Assembly (NCBI GenBank): GCA_027340655.1
Contig: DAHWQR010000031.1
Span: forward strand, 1 to 55,232
Length of the DNA: 55,232 nucleotides
Source of the DNA: Candidatus Saccharimonadota bacterium
Lineage (GTDB): Bacteria; Patescibacteriota; Saccharimonadia; Saccharimonadales; UBA4665
Direction: 5' to 3'
Below, piece after piece: positions 43,850 to 51,501 of this stretch; position 1 is the first letter of the stretch; each line of letters opens with the position of its first letter. The notes beneath the pieces were generated by a model. The model was given only the letters and a program-made list of their open reading frames with translations. It was not told the origin of the DNA and made no database searches. The position numbers were made by a program, and so were the translations under genes.

Positions 43850-44767
43850 ATGCCGACTAAGAAAAGACCCCAAGTAGATACTGCCAAAGAGGCAGTTATC
43901 GAGCCCACTACGGCTAAACCCGTTAAAGACGCGAAAGTCAGTACTGCCAAGGCTGGTAAACGCAGTCTTAAGGCAATAACTGAGGCGGAAGAGAAACAGG
44001 CCAAAGAAGAACGCAAGCTTAGTGTAAAAGCATCGGCTGAGGAGAAAAAGGAACAGCCTAAGACTAGTCACCGAGTAGTTAGCCGTTTAGATAGACGTGC
44101 CAAGGCTTATAAAAATGTCTATGCTCTCATTGATCAAGATAAGAAATACACGCTCGAAGAAGCGGCACGATTAATCGGAAAAACAAATCCGGTTAAATTC
44201 GATGCGACTGTTGAACTACATATGAAGCTAGGAGTCGATCCAAGACAGGCTGATGAAAATATCCGCGACACCGTACTGCTGCCTGCAGGGAGCGGAAGGA
44301 CATTAAGAGTAGCTGTTTTTGTCAGCGGAGATGAGGCTGAGACAGCTAAGGCTGCTGGGGCAGATCTAGTTGGTGAAAGCAATGTAATTTCTGAGTTAGA
44401 ATCCGGTAGCTTTAGTTTTGATGTCTTGATCTCGACTCCCTCTCAAATGGCTAAGTTAGGGAAGTATGCGCGCGTGCTAGGTCCTCGCGGCTTGATGCCG
44501 AACCCCAAGAGCGGTACCGTAACGAACGATATTGCACAAGCTATTAAAGAAGCGAAGTCCGGTAAAGTTGAATACCGCGTCGATAGTGGCAGCAATCTGC
44601 ATATTCCAGTCGGAAAAGTCAGTTTTAAGCCTGAGGCCTTAATTGAAAACTTAAACGCCGTAATCTCTAGCGTGCAGTCAAATAAGCCGGCCAGCGTGAA
44701 GGGTGCCTACATCATCAATATGCACTTGTCGACATCTATGGGACCGTCTTTAAAGTTAGCGCTTTAA
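43850..44767 (+). CDS. rplA: 50S ribosomal protein uL1 with about 80-aa charged N-terminal extension
   Basis: YTLEEAARLIGKTNPVKFDATVELHMKLGVDPRQADENIRDTVLLPAG; GPRGLMPNPKSGTVT. Confidence 0.96.
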   Translation: MPTKKRPQVDTAKEAVIEPTTAKPVKDAKVSTAKAGKRSLKAITEAEEKQAKEERKLSVKASAEEKKEQPKTSHRVVSRLDRRAKAYKNVYALIDQDKKYTLEEAARLIGKTNPVKFDATVELHMKLGVDPRQADENIRDTVLLPAGSGRTLRVAVFVSGDEAETAKAAGADLVGESNVISELESGSFSFDVLISTPSQMAKLGKYARVLGPRGLMPNPKSGTVTNDIAQAIKEAKSGKVEYRVDSGSNLHIPVGKVSFKPEALIENLNAVISSVQSNKPASVKGAYIINMHLSTSMGPSLKLAL

Positions 44768-46459
44768 GCGCGCGCTTTTAGGCAATCGCATCGCTAGTAA
44801 CAAAGCATTAAGCATTTTCGTAAAGCCTCGCACGCCACCTCGATACCCTAGATAGCGATCTTCCCATCTCGGTTCATACTTAGATTTAAAGCGATGTAAG
44901 CCGCTAAAAGAGTAGATCCGGTCACCGTTAACATAGGCAAAGCGCAGTACGCTAGAGACCAAGTTCTCTTCTGTCTGTGGCAAGTCTAAGCCAACCAGTG
45001 GCGACAAGCCTAGGCTTAAACTAGATTGATTATTCTCCCTGAGCTTAAATAACAAACCGTAGAGCAAAAAGTCATTACAATTTGGCGGCGCAGAAGCTGA
45101 GGCGCGTAACATGTCATAAGTCACTTCAATAGGACTAAAACTGTTAGACGGCACGATATTTAAGAATGCCTGAATGGTTTGGGCGGCATCACGCACTACG
45201 GCAACACTACATTGCTGAATATATTCCTCATTGAAATAGCCCATCACAAAGCCACGCTCGGTTCGTCCTGGTTTGCTTAACCAGTCATCGGATATTTTCC
45301 TGAGACGATCCACGACCGCATCGTGATGTGGAGGAACGAGAAGCTCAAAGCTAAAGTTTTCTTTTTCGAAGCGGTTTCTAATATTACGAAAGTACTTGTT
45401 AACGGCCGTGACTTCACAGAAGTGATTTACGTCAACGTAAGCCTCTTGGCCTATTAATTGCAGCTGGTAACCTGCAGAATCATAAATTGCTTGGTATTTT
45501 GCATCAACGTGAACCAGCGCTGGCTGCCAATCATTAGCCCAGCAAAGCTCCGAAAACTCTCTAAGAAGTTTTTTAAAAGATTGCTGCCTACCAACCGGAT
45601 CAGCTAAGACAAGCGCTACGCCACGTTTAGTGTAATAGGCCAGTGCGGCGTCGCCCCGTTGATTAAAGAAATATTGTTTATCATGAGGCCACAGCTTAAA
45701 GAAATCCTCACTTGGAGCTCCGTACTCATCCATAAGAGCCTTAATACGTTTACGCTGTTCGCTTTGGTCGATAAAACGAGCTCGCACCGGCTGCACCAAT
45801 GAGATTACGAGATAGGCGACCGATGCGGTACTAACAAAAGACAAGGAGTCCATAAACAGCTTAGCGCGCTTGGTATAGGGATGAAGGGGATGATTAGTGG
45901 TGAGATCAAACTGATCAATAGTATGGTGAATTGCACTAGGGAAGTTGATTTCAACATGAAAATCCGTCTCATCCATTAGCAAAAAGCCACTTACGCCATA
46001 GGCTAGCGTAATAACTAAAACGGATAATGCTAAGATCAGAGAACCCCGAAAGGCGCGAATATCGCTTTTAACCCGAAAGTCATTTCGGGATACCATTAGG
46101 GCTACTAAAATGACGACTGGCAAAAATACATAACGGAATAGGATTACTAAAGATACCCGTCCGACATGCAAGTGGTCGAGGTATTCGGCCGTACCCTCGC
46201 CAAGAAGAAATGTAAAAGCAGCTGCAGCTAAAACTAAGGCCGTTCGCTTACGTCTATACAGCAGAAGACTTAAATAGACAAAGCCAAGTCCCAACAGTAA
46301 ATGGACGTCAATAGTAAAGCTATTTAATAGCTTTAGGCGATGCACCCTAAATTGATCGAACAAGGTACTTGCGATAATAAATAGTCCGTACAGCCCAACA
46401 ATCAGGGTAATAAACAACACAACAAGATTTGTTCGGGATGCTGAGTTTTTAGATTTCAT
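44756..46459 (-). CDS. MprF-like integral membrane protein with DUF2156 (LPG synthetase C-terminal) domain
   Basis: N-terminal TM block; EDFFKLWPHDKQYFFNQRGDAALAYYTKRGVALVLADPVG. Confidence 0.8.
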   Translation of the reverse strand: MKSKNSASRTNLVVLFITLIVGLYGLFIIASTLFDQFRVHRLKLLNSFTIDVHLLLGLGFVYLSLLLYRRKRTALVLAAAAFTFLLGEGTAEYLDHLHVGRVSLVILFRYVFLPVVILVALMVSRNDFRVKSDIRAFRGSLILALSVLVITLAYGVSGFLLMDETDFHVEINFPSAIHHTIDQFDLTTNHPLHPYTKRAKLFMDSLSFVSTASVAYLVISLVQPVRARFIDQSEQRKRIKALMDEYGAPSEDFFKLWPHDKQYFFNQRGDAALAYYTKRGVALVLADPVGRQQSFKKLLREFSELCWANDWQPALVHVDAKYQAIYDSAGYQLQLIGQEAYVDVNHFCEVTAVNKYFRNIRNRFEKENFSFELLVPPHHDAVVDRLRKISDDWLSKPGRTERGFVMGYFNEEYIQQCSVAVVRDAAQTIQAFLNIVPSNSFSPIEVTYDMLRASASAPPNCNDFLLYGLLFKLRENNQSSLSLGLSPLVGLDLPQTEENLVSSVLRFAYVNGDRIYSFSGLHRFKSKYEPRWEDRYLGYRGGVRGFTKMLNALLLAMRLPKSARLKR

Positions 46460-46582
46460 GCTTATTAGTTAATACCATTGTACTTAATTATTAGAACCTT
46501 TAGAACTTTATTTATATTTGCTAATTGTGCAAGAAAATATGTAAAATAGAATAAAGATATAAATACGTGAGGGCATACGCCT

Positions 46583-47296
46583 TTGGGAGTTTATAGTAAC
46601 ACCGAAATTCGCGAGGCAATCAAGGGTGGGCATATTCTCTGTGTCCCGTTTAATCCCAAACATGTTGCCCATGCCAGCATGGACGTTACGCTTGGGCATT
46701 ACTTTTACCGAATAGAGCGCATGAATCAGCGGGCCATTTATAATCCCTTCGACAAAGAAGATGTAGAACGGTATTTTGACGGCCCATATAAAGCCATGCC
46801 ACACCTAGAATGGTGCAAGCTGAACAGTTTCTTACCCCTCAAGAACATACCGCCTGATCACCCTGTAATAAGCTTGAAGCCGGGTGAACGTATTCTAGCT
46901 CACACGCATGAATTCTTCGGCATCTTACCACCAGGAGCATACGAGCTTAAAAGTCGCTCTAGTTGGGGACGCAACGGTGTGGCTGTTTGTTTTGATGCCG
47001 GTTGGGTAGATCCAGGTTACATTAATCGCCTGACCTTAGAGATATACAACTTAAATCAACACGAAACGGTACTTTTACCAGTAGGAGAAAGGATCGCGCA
47101 GGCCGTCTTTCACCACACTGGTCCGGTAGAAGGTAGCTACGGCGAAGGCAGAGATAGCGGCTTTAGCGGTAAATACCAACAGGGAACCGATATCGAGACC
47201 ATTATTCAAACCTGGGCTCCGGACATGATGCTCCCGAAAGCCTACAAAGATAATCGTAGTTTACCCAAAGCAATTGATGGCATGGCCTATGAATAG
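46583..47296 (+). CDS. dcd: dCTP deaminase family protein (TTG start)
   Basis: ELKSRSSWGRNGVAVCFDAGWVDPGYINRLTLEIYNLN. Confidence 0.88.
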   Translation: MGVYSNTEIREAIKGGHILCVPFNPKHVAHASMDVTLGHYFYRIERMNQRAIYNPFDKEDVERYFDGPYKAMPHLEWCKLNSFLPLKNIPPDHPVISLKPGERILAHTHEFFGILPPGAYELKSRSSWGRNGVAVCFDAGWVDPGYINRLTLEIYNLNQHETVLLPVGERIAQAVFHHTGPVEGSYGEGRDSGFSGKYQQGTDIETIIQTWAPDMMLPKAYKDNRSLPKAIDGMAYE

Positions 47297-49634
47297 AGGC
47301 AAGTACATAGTTATTGAGGGCCCCGGGGGAGTCGGAAAAACAACTCAAGTACTGGAACTCTCGCGACGGTTACAAGCCGCCGGCTTACCAATTCGTACTT
47401 TGCGTGAACCGGATTCGCAGAGCGACTTAACGGCTCGCACGATTAGGCATCTGACTCAAGATCCGACCTATCCTATGAATACCGTAACCGAAGTACTTCT
47501 GTACAACGCAGCTCGTTCCCAGTCTCTCCAAGTAATCGCTAAAAGTTTAGACCAAGGAGTAACTTGCGTTGTTGATCGCAATTATTTAACCACCCTAACG
47601 GTCCAATACTATGGACGCGGAGATGTTAAAAATTACGAGGCAATTAACCGAATAATTGAATTTGCGGTAAATGGCATGGAGCCGGACTTGACTATTGTAA
47701 TGGACGCTCCGGTGCAAGACTTAATTAAGCATGCCGGGGCGCGCAATCAGGGCGAGCGTTTTGACCATCTGGATTCAGAATTTTTAGAGCGGGTTAGAGC
47801 CGGCTATCTATGGGAGGCCAATCAGCGTGGGTATCCAATAGTTGTAGCTACCGGATCGGAGGAGGAAGTTGCAAACCGAATTTGGCCGCATGTGGCTCGT
47901 ACTTTAGCAGATCACAATTCGGACCTCGCGCAACCTAAATCTTACAGCGCTGCTGACACCGCACGATTAGAGTCCGCTTCTCCACAAATATCCACTGAGG
48001 CAAATGAACCGCTAATCGTTAAAGAAGATGGTAATTACCGGGTTACTGAAAGTGGCAATAAAGTTCTTGATTTAGCGGTAACTGACCAAAAAGGGAATAT
48101 TTACGCCTTTTACGATTACTTTGCGCCTGCGACAATTGCTGCTGCAATGGCCAGATTAAGCCGTCGGGGCGACGACATGCGCGTTATTCTGCTTGATGAA
48201 TTTGCCAAGAACAACGGCCAGGATGCCGATTTATTAAAGCGAGTTATAACTGCTTATGGAGATGATTCGGTGCAGCAGCTAGCCGGAATACATCTAGTCG
48301 TTGAACAAGCCTCTAACCTGCTAACTAAGAAACTGGAATGGGGAAGGTTGGCGGCATACCTCGAGCAATCGACGCGCTATATTTACTACGACAAAAAGGA
48401 CGCTCAGGGCAACTACCGCTACATGACTCCGGACAGCTTAGATGCGCAGTCTAAAAAAGTCTTTAAACAAACGATGGATCAAATATTTGATCTGTACTCT
48501 TCCTTAGTGCATAAGATGAGTAGTTATATTGAGGCTGTTAGCAGCGTTCCGCCTAAGGAGCGCGACGCCGCATTTCGCGCTTCAATCAAAGCCCAGGCCT
48601 GCGACGTCGCCAGGCCGATGCTCCCGGTAGCAACCACTTCTACAGTGGGGATATACGCTTCTGGTCAGGCAGTGGAATCGCTCATTATGCACCTGCTCGC
48701 AGATGACACTATTGAAGCAAGAAAAGCCGGCCAGGCAATACTAAAGCAGGCTAGAAAGGTTATACCAATGTTTCTAGAGCGAGCGGATAGGCCTGACCGA
48801 GGCGGGGCCATGGTGGCTTACCGAGCAAACACCGCCCATGCCATGAAAGATCTGTCAAAGGACTTGCTCGGACAAAAGCTTGCACAAAGTTCTGAAGCCA
48901 AAGCTACACTAGTCGACATCTGGCCGCATAACGAGCTCGACCTAGTAGCTGACATGCTCTATGAGCACAGTGATTTACCGCTCACCGAGATCCGCAAAAT
49001 TGTCGATAGCCTAAGCTATGAAGATAAAGTTAAAGTCATGCAAAGCTATTTTGGCGAAAGGCTAAACCGCCGGCAGCGGCCGGGCCGGGCACTCGAAAAA
49101 GCCCATTATAGCTGGGACATTGTCTGCGATTACGGTATATTTCGGGATTTGCAAAGGCACCGTATGGTAGATGATTTAGCTTGGCAGGAGCTGACCCCCA
49201 GATATGGTTATGACATACCGGAATTAATCGAAAAAGCCGGCCTAAGCGAAATTTATGAAAACGCTTTTGATCTGTCTCTTAAACTTTACAGCAAGCTAAC
49301 TGCCGCCGGATTCCAGCTGGAAGCCCAGTATGCTACATTGCTAGGCCACCGCATGCGCTGGAAAATGACCTATAACGCCCGCGAAGCTTTTCATCTGCAC
49401 GAGCTTAGAACCACCCCTCAAGGACACCCCGGATACCGCAAGTTAATTCAATCAATGCACGAAGAACTATCCAAATACCACCCCATAATCTACGAGGCCA
49501 TGATCTTCGTTAACCGTGATGAGGATCCTGAGCTATCTCGCTTGGCAGCCGAACGCTATAGTCAATTTAAGCTCAACCAACTATCCTCCAAACAGGTAAT
49601 TCGAAAAACTGGGAAAAAGCAGCCTAGGCCCTAA
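47289..49634 (+). CDS. Fusion: thymidylate kinase + two ThyX-like (FAD-dependent thymidylate synthase) domains
   Basis: Start reset from 47274 to ATG 47289; MNRGKYIVIEGPGGVGKTTQ (Tmk); YGDDSVQQLAGIHLVVEQASNLLTKKLEWGRLAAYLEQSTRY and IFRDLQRHRMVDDLAWQELTPRY (ThyX repeats). Confidence 0.88.
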   Translation: MNRGKYIVIEGPGGVGKTTQVLELSRRLQAAGLPIRTLREPDSQSDLTARTIRHLTQDPTYPMNTVTEVLLYNAARSQSLQVIAKSLDQGVTCVVDRNYLTTLTVQYYGRGDVKNYEAINRIIEFAVNGMEPDLTIVMDAPVQDLIKHAGARNQGERFDHLDSEFLERVRAGYLWEANQRGYPIVVATGSEEEVANRIWPHVARTLADHNSDLAQPKSYSAADTARLESASPQISTEANEPLIVKEDGNYRVTESGNKVLDLAVTDQKGNIYAFYDYFAPATIAAAMARLSRRGDDMRVILLDEFAKNNGQDADLLKRVITAYGDDSVQQLAGIHLVVEQASNLLTKKLEWGRLAAYLEQSTRYIYYDKKDAQGNYRYMTPDSLDAQSKKVFKQTMDQIFDLYSSLVHKMSSYIEAVSSVPPKERDAAFRASIKAQACDVARPMLPVATTSTVGIYASGQAVESLIMHLLADDTIEARKAGQAILKQARKVIPMFLERADRPDRGGAMVAYRANTAHAMKDLSKDLLGQKLAQSSEAKATLVDIWPHNELDLVADMLYEHSDLPLTEIRKIVDSLSYEDKVKVMQSYFGERLNRRQRPGRALEKAHYSWDIVCDYGIFRDLQRHRMVDDLAWQELTPRYGYDIPELIEKAGLSEIYENAFDLSLKLYSKLTAAGFQLEAQYATLLGHRMRWKMTYNAREAFHLHELRTTPQGHPGYRKLIQSMHEELSKYHPIIYEAMIFVNRDEDPELSRLAAERYSQFKLNQLSSKQVIRKTGKKQPRP

Positions 49635-50215
49635 ATATCTCGAAGTGCTGGGTCATGGACGTAGGTAATGCCGCTGATGCCAATGGTGGGTATTTCGTCG
49701 GTAGGAAATGAACGGCTAAAGTCATAAACGCAGGAAATGCCGGTATAAGTTTTTCGACCCGGCAAAAAAACCGATTCAGCATATAAATGCTCACAATTCC
49801 TAGCCCCGCGGGCGTAAGTAACGTATCGATCAGGGCTATCAAAATCTATCGGCGGAAGCCAGAAATCGTCAGGATCCTTACCCTCTAGAACAGCCTTAAT
49901 CCGAGGAAAATGGAATCGTAGGCCGTTATGTGTAGCATTAAGTACCTGATCGCCAGCGGGCAAATATACTTCGCTACGCTTCGATGAGCCATATAGTTCT
50001 ACGACATGCTCGCCAATGATGCGTAAGGCCTTTTGATCCCTAAATATTTCAAGACCTTTCGGATCAATCGAATCGTCTGGTCTGCGTTTAATGTATCCTT
50101 TAGGAAAACGATCCTTATAAACCTCAGAATTATCGCGGACATAGCCGCGAACGCAAATTATCTCTGGAGATGGCTCAACCTCCAACTCTCTTGTATCAAA
50201 TTTTTCTAAAGTCAT
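49631..50215 (-). CDS. Hypothetical protein
   Basis: 194-aa ORF, no family recognised. Confidence 0.65.
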   Translation of the reverse strand: MTLEKFDTRELEVEPSPEIICVRGYVRDNSEVYKDRFPKGYIKRRPDDSIDPKGLEIFRDQKALRIIGEHVVELYGSSKRSEVYLPAGDQVLNATHNGLRFHFPRIKAVLEGKDPDDFWLPPIDFDSPDRYVTYARGARNCEHLYAESVFLPGRKTYTGISCVYDFSRSFPTDEIPTIGISGITYVHDPALRDI

Positions 50216-50355
50216 TTTTTAAAACCGAAATTAAGATTACTCGTAATTACTACTGTTGTCAATCGTAATATAGATTTGTTTTAACGCTATTTTCAGCTAC
50301 TTAAAAAAGTTAAAAATATTGCATTTACACATCATTCTGTTAGAATTGGTTTTAA

Positions 50356-50515
50356 GTTGCCTGAAGACAGCGACGGGAAATTTTCCTTGATAATGTCGCC
50401 GAGGTCTAGTTCAACTCTTAAAGAAGTCCTCATCTCTGCTTTAGATAGTTAGATGAGCACTTCTTCGGCAACAACGGTTAAATTTTTCGAGCTAACAAAA
50501 TATGGTCGATAGCCC
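50356..50515 (+). promoter_or_regulatory. Ribosomal protein L10 leader
   Basis: TGCCTGAAGACAGCGACGGG...TGTCGCCGAGGTCTAG matches the L10-leader kink-turn pattern; downstream hairpin GAAGTcCTCATCT...AGATGAGcACTTC. Confidence 0.75.
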
Positions 50516-50555
50516 GGAATAATAAAATCAACTAAATAAGGAAAGCGTAATCACT

Positions 50556-51083
50556 ATGCCTTTAACTAAGGAAAAGAAGGAGCAAGTCGTCTCAAGTATT
50601 GGCGAACTGCTCAGTTCATCTAAGATGACCGTTATCGTCAAGTATCAGGGAACTCCTGTTAAAAGCTTGCAATCTCTTCGTCGTGAGGCCAGAGAAAACG
50701 GTACGGTTATTAAGGTAGTAAAAAACCGTTTAGTAATCAAAGCTTTGTCCCAACTGGATCGCTTTAAGTCAGTTGATGTCGGCCCCCTAGAGGGAATGCT
50801 CGCGTATGCATTTAACGACAGCGACGAAGTGGCAGCTGCGGCTAGTTTAGCGAATTTTGCTAAAACCAATCCGACCCTAGAATTCGTCGGGGCTATTACT
50901 GCGGATGGTAACTGGCTCGGCGCCGATCAGGTCGGCGATTTGGCGAAACTGCCAGGCAAACCGGAGCTGATCGCATTGGTTGTTGCCTTACTCGGCACCC
51001 CAATCCGTTCAGTTATCAGCGCTACGAGATCCGGACTGCCGGCAATAATTTCGGCACTAGAAGCTAACGCAAGCCAAGCATAA
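50556..51083 (+). CDS. rplJ: 50S ribosomal protein uL10
   Basis: KYQGTPVKSLQSLRREARENGTVIKVVKNRLVIKAL. Confidence 0.96.
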   Translation: MPLTKEKKEQVVSSIGELLSSSKMTVIVKYQGTPVKSLQSLRREARENGTVIKVVKNRLVIKALSQLDRFKSVDVGPLEGMLAYAFNDSDEVAAAASLANFAKTNPTLEFVGAITADGNWLGADQVGDLAKLPGKPELIALVVALLGTPIRSVISATRSGLPAIISALEANASQA

Positions 51084-51114
51084 TAATTAATTAGAAATTT
51101 TAAGGAGCAAAGTT

Positions 51115-51501
51115 ATGGCAAATAGCAATAATATCGAGAAATTAGCAGAAGAGCTGGTCAAGTTGACCGTTCTTGAGGTAAATGAACTTAGTAACATCCT
51201 AAAAGATAAGTACGGAATTGAACCAGCAGCCGCGATAGCTGCTGTGGCCGCTCCTGCTGCCGCTGGAGCTGCTGAAGTCGAGGAAGCAAAAAGTGAATAC
51301 GATGTCGTGCTTAAAGACGCAGGCGCTCAAAAAGTGGCTGTTATTAAGGCCGTTAAGGACATTACCAACCTAGGCCTGGGTGAAGCTAAGGCTTTAGTCG
51401 ATGGCGCACCAAAGACGATTCTTGAAAAAGCTAAGACTGAAGACGCTGAAGCCGCTAAGAAAAAGCTTGAAGAAGCCGGCGCTACAGTAGAATTAGCTTA
51501 A
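51115..51501 (+). CDS. rplL: 50S ribosomal protein bL12
   Basis: [41 protein letters not shown]. Confidence 0.98.

Follow-up and report, generated by a model that had tools for sequence, protein, structure and literature searches.

Two enzymes of the thymidylate pathway are joined in one chain in protozoa, in the form of a fusion of DHFR with the thymidylate synthase ThyA, and the ThyX of Chlamydia trachomatis, which is also long (about 529 aa), is reportedly biochemically active. The other systems closest to the gene described here are the single-domain, homotetrameric ThyX enzymes (Thermotoga maritima TM0449, Mycobacterium tuberculosis and PBCV-1), whose active sites are shared between monomers, and the thymidylate kinases (Tmk) of the TIGR00041 type, such as those of Pseudomonas aeruginosa, Aquifex and T. 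maritima. Tandem ThyX proteins without a kinase are already annotated in public records of plasmids and a phage, as ‘FAD-dependent thymidylate synthase’ in Euzebya (WP_164711104.1), Miltoncostaea (WP_217924789.1), Parabacteroides (WP_009276148.1) and Bacillus (WP_087635014.1), and as ‘thymidylate synthase’ in Tunturiibacter phage Tunturi_5 (XOB77493.1).

The gene described here encodes a Tmk followed by two ThyX domains. It has the fold and catalytic residues of the homotetrameric ThyX enzymes in common, but differs from them in having two non-identical halves per chain, an Asp in place of His53 and an attached kinase. The annotated tandems also have two Thy1 halves per chain and share out the catalytic residues between them in the same way, but they have no kinase and are about 23–41 % identical to the fusion. 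The kinase part has the P-loop and DR motif of the TIGR00041-type enzymes, from which it differs in being joined to ThyX, and the protozoan fusion has a synthase of an unrelated family, with a partner that acts in folate recycling and is not the next kinase. The preliminary description of this DNA considered the architecture unfamiliar; this holds for the kinase fusion but not for the tandem ThyX as such. The literature that was searched, with most subscription journals outside its scope, contained no description of a Tmk–ThyX fusion, of the split site or of the catalytically dead fusions reported below.

The fusion gene and its genome setting

The window, by which we mean the whole 55,232-nucleotide stretch analysed (contig DAHWQR010000031.1 of assembly GCA_027340655.1), comes from a 535-kb draft genome in 36 contigs that is 86 % complete. 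Translation of the fusion ORF gives 781 codons and a stop with no internal stops, in agreement with the preliminary description, and Pfam and NCBIfam searches place one thymidylate kinase domain ahead of two Thy1/ThyX domains (Table 1). The N-terminal Tmk that had been proposed is borne out by its two motifs and by matches to PF02223 (1e-26, 94.2 bits against a cut-off of 27) and TIGR00041 (93 bits, above the cut-off of 83.25). The C-terminal region likewise passes the proposed comparison with Thy1 profiles: PF02511 matches it in two stretches (3.7e-36, 125.2 bits against a cut-off of 24.8), and the genome search resolves two separate domains in one frame, at 48120–48767 (62.5 bits) and 48945–49484 (63.7 bits), each of which exceeds the Pfam cut-off separately. 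The thyX equivalog profile TIGR02170, however, scores 61.3 bits, under its cut-off of 87.9, so that automatic annotation could rest on the kinase part and the fusion possibly be named from that part alone.

Table 1. Features of the fusion locus, and thyA genes near catalytically dead fusions in related genomes
Feature	Position	Strand	Basis or remark
dcd, dCTP deaminase (DCD)	46583..47296	+	directly upstream; 8-nt overlap with fusion start
tmk-thyX-thyX fusion ORF	47289..49634	+	781 aa; translation and profile matches
Thymidylate kinase domain, residues 1–208, TIGR00041 type	47289..47912	+	PF02223 residues 9–198, TIGR00041, Foldseek
P-loop GPGGVGKTT, residues 11–19	47319..47345	+	sequence
Tmk DR motif D96-R97	47574..47579	+	sequence
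Linker, residues 209–239	47913..48005	+	pLDDT below 50 at residues 210–237
ThyX half 1, residues 240–545	48006..48923	+	S30, S88, R90, Y91, R147 equivalents kept; R78-H79 and R174 lost
S361-T-R363-Y364 = T. maritima S88..R90-Y91	48369..48380	+	invariant in intact members
R442 = T. maritima R147 position	48612..48614	+	invariant; M. tuberculosis ThyX alignment
ThyX half 2, residues 546–768	48924..49592	+	R78-H79-R80, N163/R165, R174 equivalents kept; S88 and R147 side lost
R623-H624-R625 = RHR motif	49155..49163	+	invariant in window family
R707 = T. maritima R174 (dUMP activation)	49407..49409	+	invariant; PBCV-1 ThyX ‘HYIELRTS’ alignment
194-aa ORF	49631-50215	-	ends overlap fusion by 4 nt
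thyA near dead fusion	G038 C46, G002 C91, G136 C15, G116 C7		loci L140, L141, L071, L138

When an AlphaFold model of the full-length protein was searched with Foldseek, the top matches were solved Tmk structures (TMt about 0.85) and Tmk structures alone were returned; ThyX is absent because the Tmk matches crowd it out, and the search was therefore redone with the tandem ThyX part by itself. By profile and motifs, the fused kinase part is predicted to be an active dTMP kinase. The low-confidence residues that follow it in the model (210–237) appear as would be expected for a flexible linker.

It is next to inconceivable that the fused ORF is an artefact of assembly or frame that unites two genes, even though the source genome is a draft in many contigs: the identical open frame was found again in many independent assemblies, and three relatives with named records (titled Candidatus Saccharibacteria) match at 72–86 % identity over almost the whole length. 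Because the fused frame is repeated across so many assemblies, this explanation was rejected.

Within its own genome, at the 86 % completeness given above, the fusion provides the sole matches to Thymidylate_kin (PF02223) and Thy1 (PF02511), and the genome search found no ThyA. A gene for SHMT, for CH2-THF, is present. The sole Tmk match is likewise the fused kinase in G112 and G092, which at 97 % are the most complete congeners. The dcd gene matches PF22769 (9.1e-32) and scores 89.9 bits with TIGR02274, slightly under the cut-off of 92.8. It is the same-strand upstream neighbour in 40 of the 40 fused relatives with upstream DNA (L004–L028 and L030–L044, among which two pairs are one gene fetched twice), and in 39 of these it overlaps the open frame of the fusion or lies within about 25 nt of it, the remaining one being 611 nt away. 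Searches of the window's genome for a separate dUTPase found none: PF00692 matches dcd alone, and PF08761 matches nothing. Dcd is probably of the bifunctional deaminase/dUTPase kind, which would take dCTP to dUMP. Given the overlap upstream and the lack of a detected separate dUTPase, dcd and the fusion are likely a cassette of two genes that leads from dCTP to dTDP, the sole such route detected in this genome.

The short ORF on the opposite strand beyond the fusion is without a Pfam match. As read by eye, positions 43850–51501 of the window contain what we take to be the ribosomal protein genes rplA and rplJ-rplL; between them lie dcd and the fusion, together with a presumed membrane/LPG-synthase-like gene and an ORF of unknown kind. 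In many bacteria rplA and rplJ-rplL are contiguous.

Division of the ThyX active site

Equivalent ThyX residues are numbered here as in T. maritima. His53 is conserved in ThyX and takes part in folate stacking. R174 activates dUMP, and S88, R90 and Y91 are needed (PMC8316439); R78 touches reduced FAD, and H53 is supplied by a third monomer (PMC11940539). In PBCV-1 ThyX, Ser88 from monomer B and Arg182 from monomer A contribute to the same site (PMC3498832), and counting along the alignment places this Arg182 at the R174 position. Since published ThyX sites are shared between monomers in this way, halves that each hold part of a site can work.

The fused chain as a whole has equivalents of R78, R80, S88, R90, Y91, R147 and R174 (R623, R625, S361, R363, Y364, R442 and R707 respectively), though no single domain contains the RHR-x7-S motif, as RHR is in half 2 and S88/R90/Y91 are in half 1. 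In most members W351-G352 of half 1 occupy the R78-H79 positions. The two halves could not be usefully aligned with each other by profile comparison and were therefore compared through canonical ThyX; their sequence match to solved ThyX proteins is weak. The AlphaFold model of the tandem (pLDDT 85, pTM 0.80) nevertheless matches the TM0449 ThyX structures (TMt about 0.6–0.7, E about 1e-6), and on this model the tandem is predicted to have the ThyX fold.

The SRYR residues of half 1 and the RHR and R174 residues of half 2 are kept together in 107 sequence entries, which include some duplicate fetches of one gene. Where half 1 is intact, the departures from this pattern are variants with RGR, RHK or RHN and one frame truncated at its end; RGR or RHK occurs in three distant tandems from the order. 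By comparison, nearly all of 33 aligned single-domain ThyX proteins (from phages and Patescibacteria) have RHR, S88, R147 and R174 in one domain. The complementary split is also present in the tandem ThyX proteins of Actinobacteria, Parabacteroides, Bacillus, Paenibacillus, an acidobacterial phage and distant Patescibacteria; every unfused tandem examined divides the residues in essentially the same way, with RHN in place of RHR in Bacillus and Paenibacillus. For this reason the tandem is best read, from its residues, as a pseudo-dimer in which each chain holds a single composite site.

The preliminary description spoke of two successive ThyX-like domains. There are indeed two Thy1 domains in the chain, but they are not two synthases, since each has part of a site. 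A chain of two independent, complete synthases and a kinase might be argued from the separate scores of the halves above the Thy1 cut-off, but it is highly improbable: half 1 mostly has W351-G352 and lacks R174, half 2 lacks S88 and R147, and the same split recurs in all tandems examined. We rejected it on these residues.

At the His53 position half 1 has Asp325 and half 2 has Pro598, Asp620 stands at the Q75 position, and half 2 has three additional residues after RHR. The change of H53 to Asp in the window family need not abolish binding, since crystal structures of T. maritima H53D with FAD and dUMP exist (4kar and 4kas). These three departures amount to a remodelled folate/flavin side, as might be seen in a bifunctional protein whose ThyX part used a different donor or made a modified nucleotide and not dTMP. 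Such altered chemistry is nevertheless very unlikely, for the fusion is the sole thymidylate synthase candidate in a genome that has SHMT, and it adjoins dcd.

Distribution, kinase types and dead fusions

A protein search with the fusion found matches in 131 of the 148 genomes of the order, and the survey that the preliminary description proposed shows that the Tmk–ThyX–ThyX arrangement recurs across it, with the same architecture in an open frame, about 50–86 % identical, in dozens of other genomes. Among intact tandems, 74 genome entries have a recognisable fused Tmk and 15 do not, some of these 15 being truncated by contig ends. Outside the order, tandem ThyX is common among 382 genomes across the phylum; since the frames there are of 619 aa or less among the matches listed, fusion to the kinase appears to be peculiar to this order. 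Among plasmid and phage records, none covered 80 % of the query.

The fused kinases are of two types, which occupy the same position ahead of the same tandem ThyX. One is the TIGR00041 type of the window; the other, found in other members of the order, has its best matches to NF005923 and to M. tuberculosis Tmk structures. One pair of the two types, compared singly, is 25 % identical over 182 columns. A quick tree of the ThyX part shows about 12 switches of the kinase label, and well-supported branches force two to three of them; this switching may reflect repeated fusion or domain exchange, and the quick tree fits either. Some genomes of the same family have a second, short gene resembling Tmk close to the fusion (L081:1890-2546 and L078:5372-6052), and none was found in the window's genome.

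The ThyX part was read in 105 genomes. Intact tandems alone are present in 85 of them, dead ones alone (as called from residues) in 17, and both in three. In the 17 dead-only genomes the fusion or its remnant has lost ThyX residues on both sides of the site, although most dead fusions are still open frames of about 460–700 codons. ThyA is present in 14 of these 17 genomes and in four of the 85 with intact tandems only (Fisher p = 3e-11); this test counts related genomes as independent, and a fairer contrast is that within the five families having both states (f1, f2, f3, f31 and f37), in which dead fusions occur with ThyA and intact ones mostly without it (one-sided sign test, p = 0.03). The three dead-only genomes with no detected ThyA are 76, 90 and 92 % complete. 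In four genomes the ThyA gene lies close to the dead fusion, at about 0.2 kb (G002), 1.4 kb (G038), 2.5 kb (G116) and 3.4 kb (G136), suggesting that ThyA replaced ThyX in place. That decay of ThyX accompanies the presence of ThyA speaks for thymidylate synthesis as the function for which the split residues are retained.

A Tmk with a catalytically degraded ThyX in a long open frame was seen, mostly in ThyA genomes, at loci L063–L069, L071, L130 and L137–L142. In two cases (L141:108-1910 and L070:1301-2824) the kinase P-loop is lost too while roughly 500–600 aa are still open, and the kinase part of L140 matches weakly as well.

The dead fusions, together with the replacement of H53 in the window protein, raise the question of whether the ThyX part is already non-catalytic in the window's genome and acts as a scaffold for Tmk. 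We regard this as very unlikely: the window family shows no variation at the remaining split residues, where the dead fusions have losses on both sides, and no ThyA was found in the genome.

A proposed single-chain route from dUMP to dTDP

The reading that we favour, and of which we are fairly confident, is a bifunctional thymidylate enzyme made of Tmk and a single-chain, split-site ThyX pseudo-dimer, acting with Dcd as a cassette from dCTP to dTDP; its synthase and kinase activities, oligomer, stoichiometry, working sites and Dcd bifunctionality are all predicted. Half 1 would give the flexible-loop side of the site (the Ser88/Arg90/Tyr91 and Arg147 equivalents) and half 2 the flavin/dUMP side (Arg78-His79-Arg80 and Arg174). 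If the protein assembles like the ThyX homotetramer, a pair of chains would make up a body of four domains, in which two composite sites would work and two would be vestigial. Dcd, encoded upstream, would convert dCTP to dUMP; the composite sites would then convert dUMP to dTMP with FAD, CH2-THF and NAD(P)H, and the N-terminal Tmk, on its flexible linker, would convert dTMP to dTDP.

We infer, with good support, that one protein would thus convert dUMP to dTDP, as the preliminary description had supposed. The kinase motifs and most ThyX catalytic positions are conserved, the fusion is the sole thymidylate synthase and sole Tmk detected in its genome, and elsewhere it is with ThyA that ThyX decays.

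A broader history can be proposed more tentatively, and we would put it at somewhat less than an even chance as a whole. What selection keeps may be the linkage itself; two distantly related kinases would have been joined to one split-site ThyX body, either through repeated fusion or through swapping; after takeover by ThyA, the ThyX part would lose its catalytic residues and stay, often as 300–400 residues, as a pseudoenzyme scaffold for Tmk; and each four ThyX domains would hold two working and two vestigial sites.

The fusion would join in one chain two consecutive, essential DNA-precursor steps, the last two that are specific to making the DNA letter T, in bacteria with reduced genomes (Saccharibacteria). 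In the tandem, the active site of ThyX would be dissected by nature, so that the residues of each side may be read from evolution and their contributions tested with mutants of single halves without the mixing of subunits. The dead fusions, in turn, may serve as natural experiments on the role of the ThyX body for Tmk beyond catalysis.
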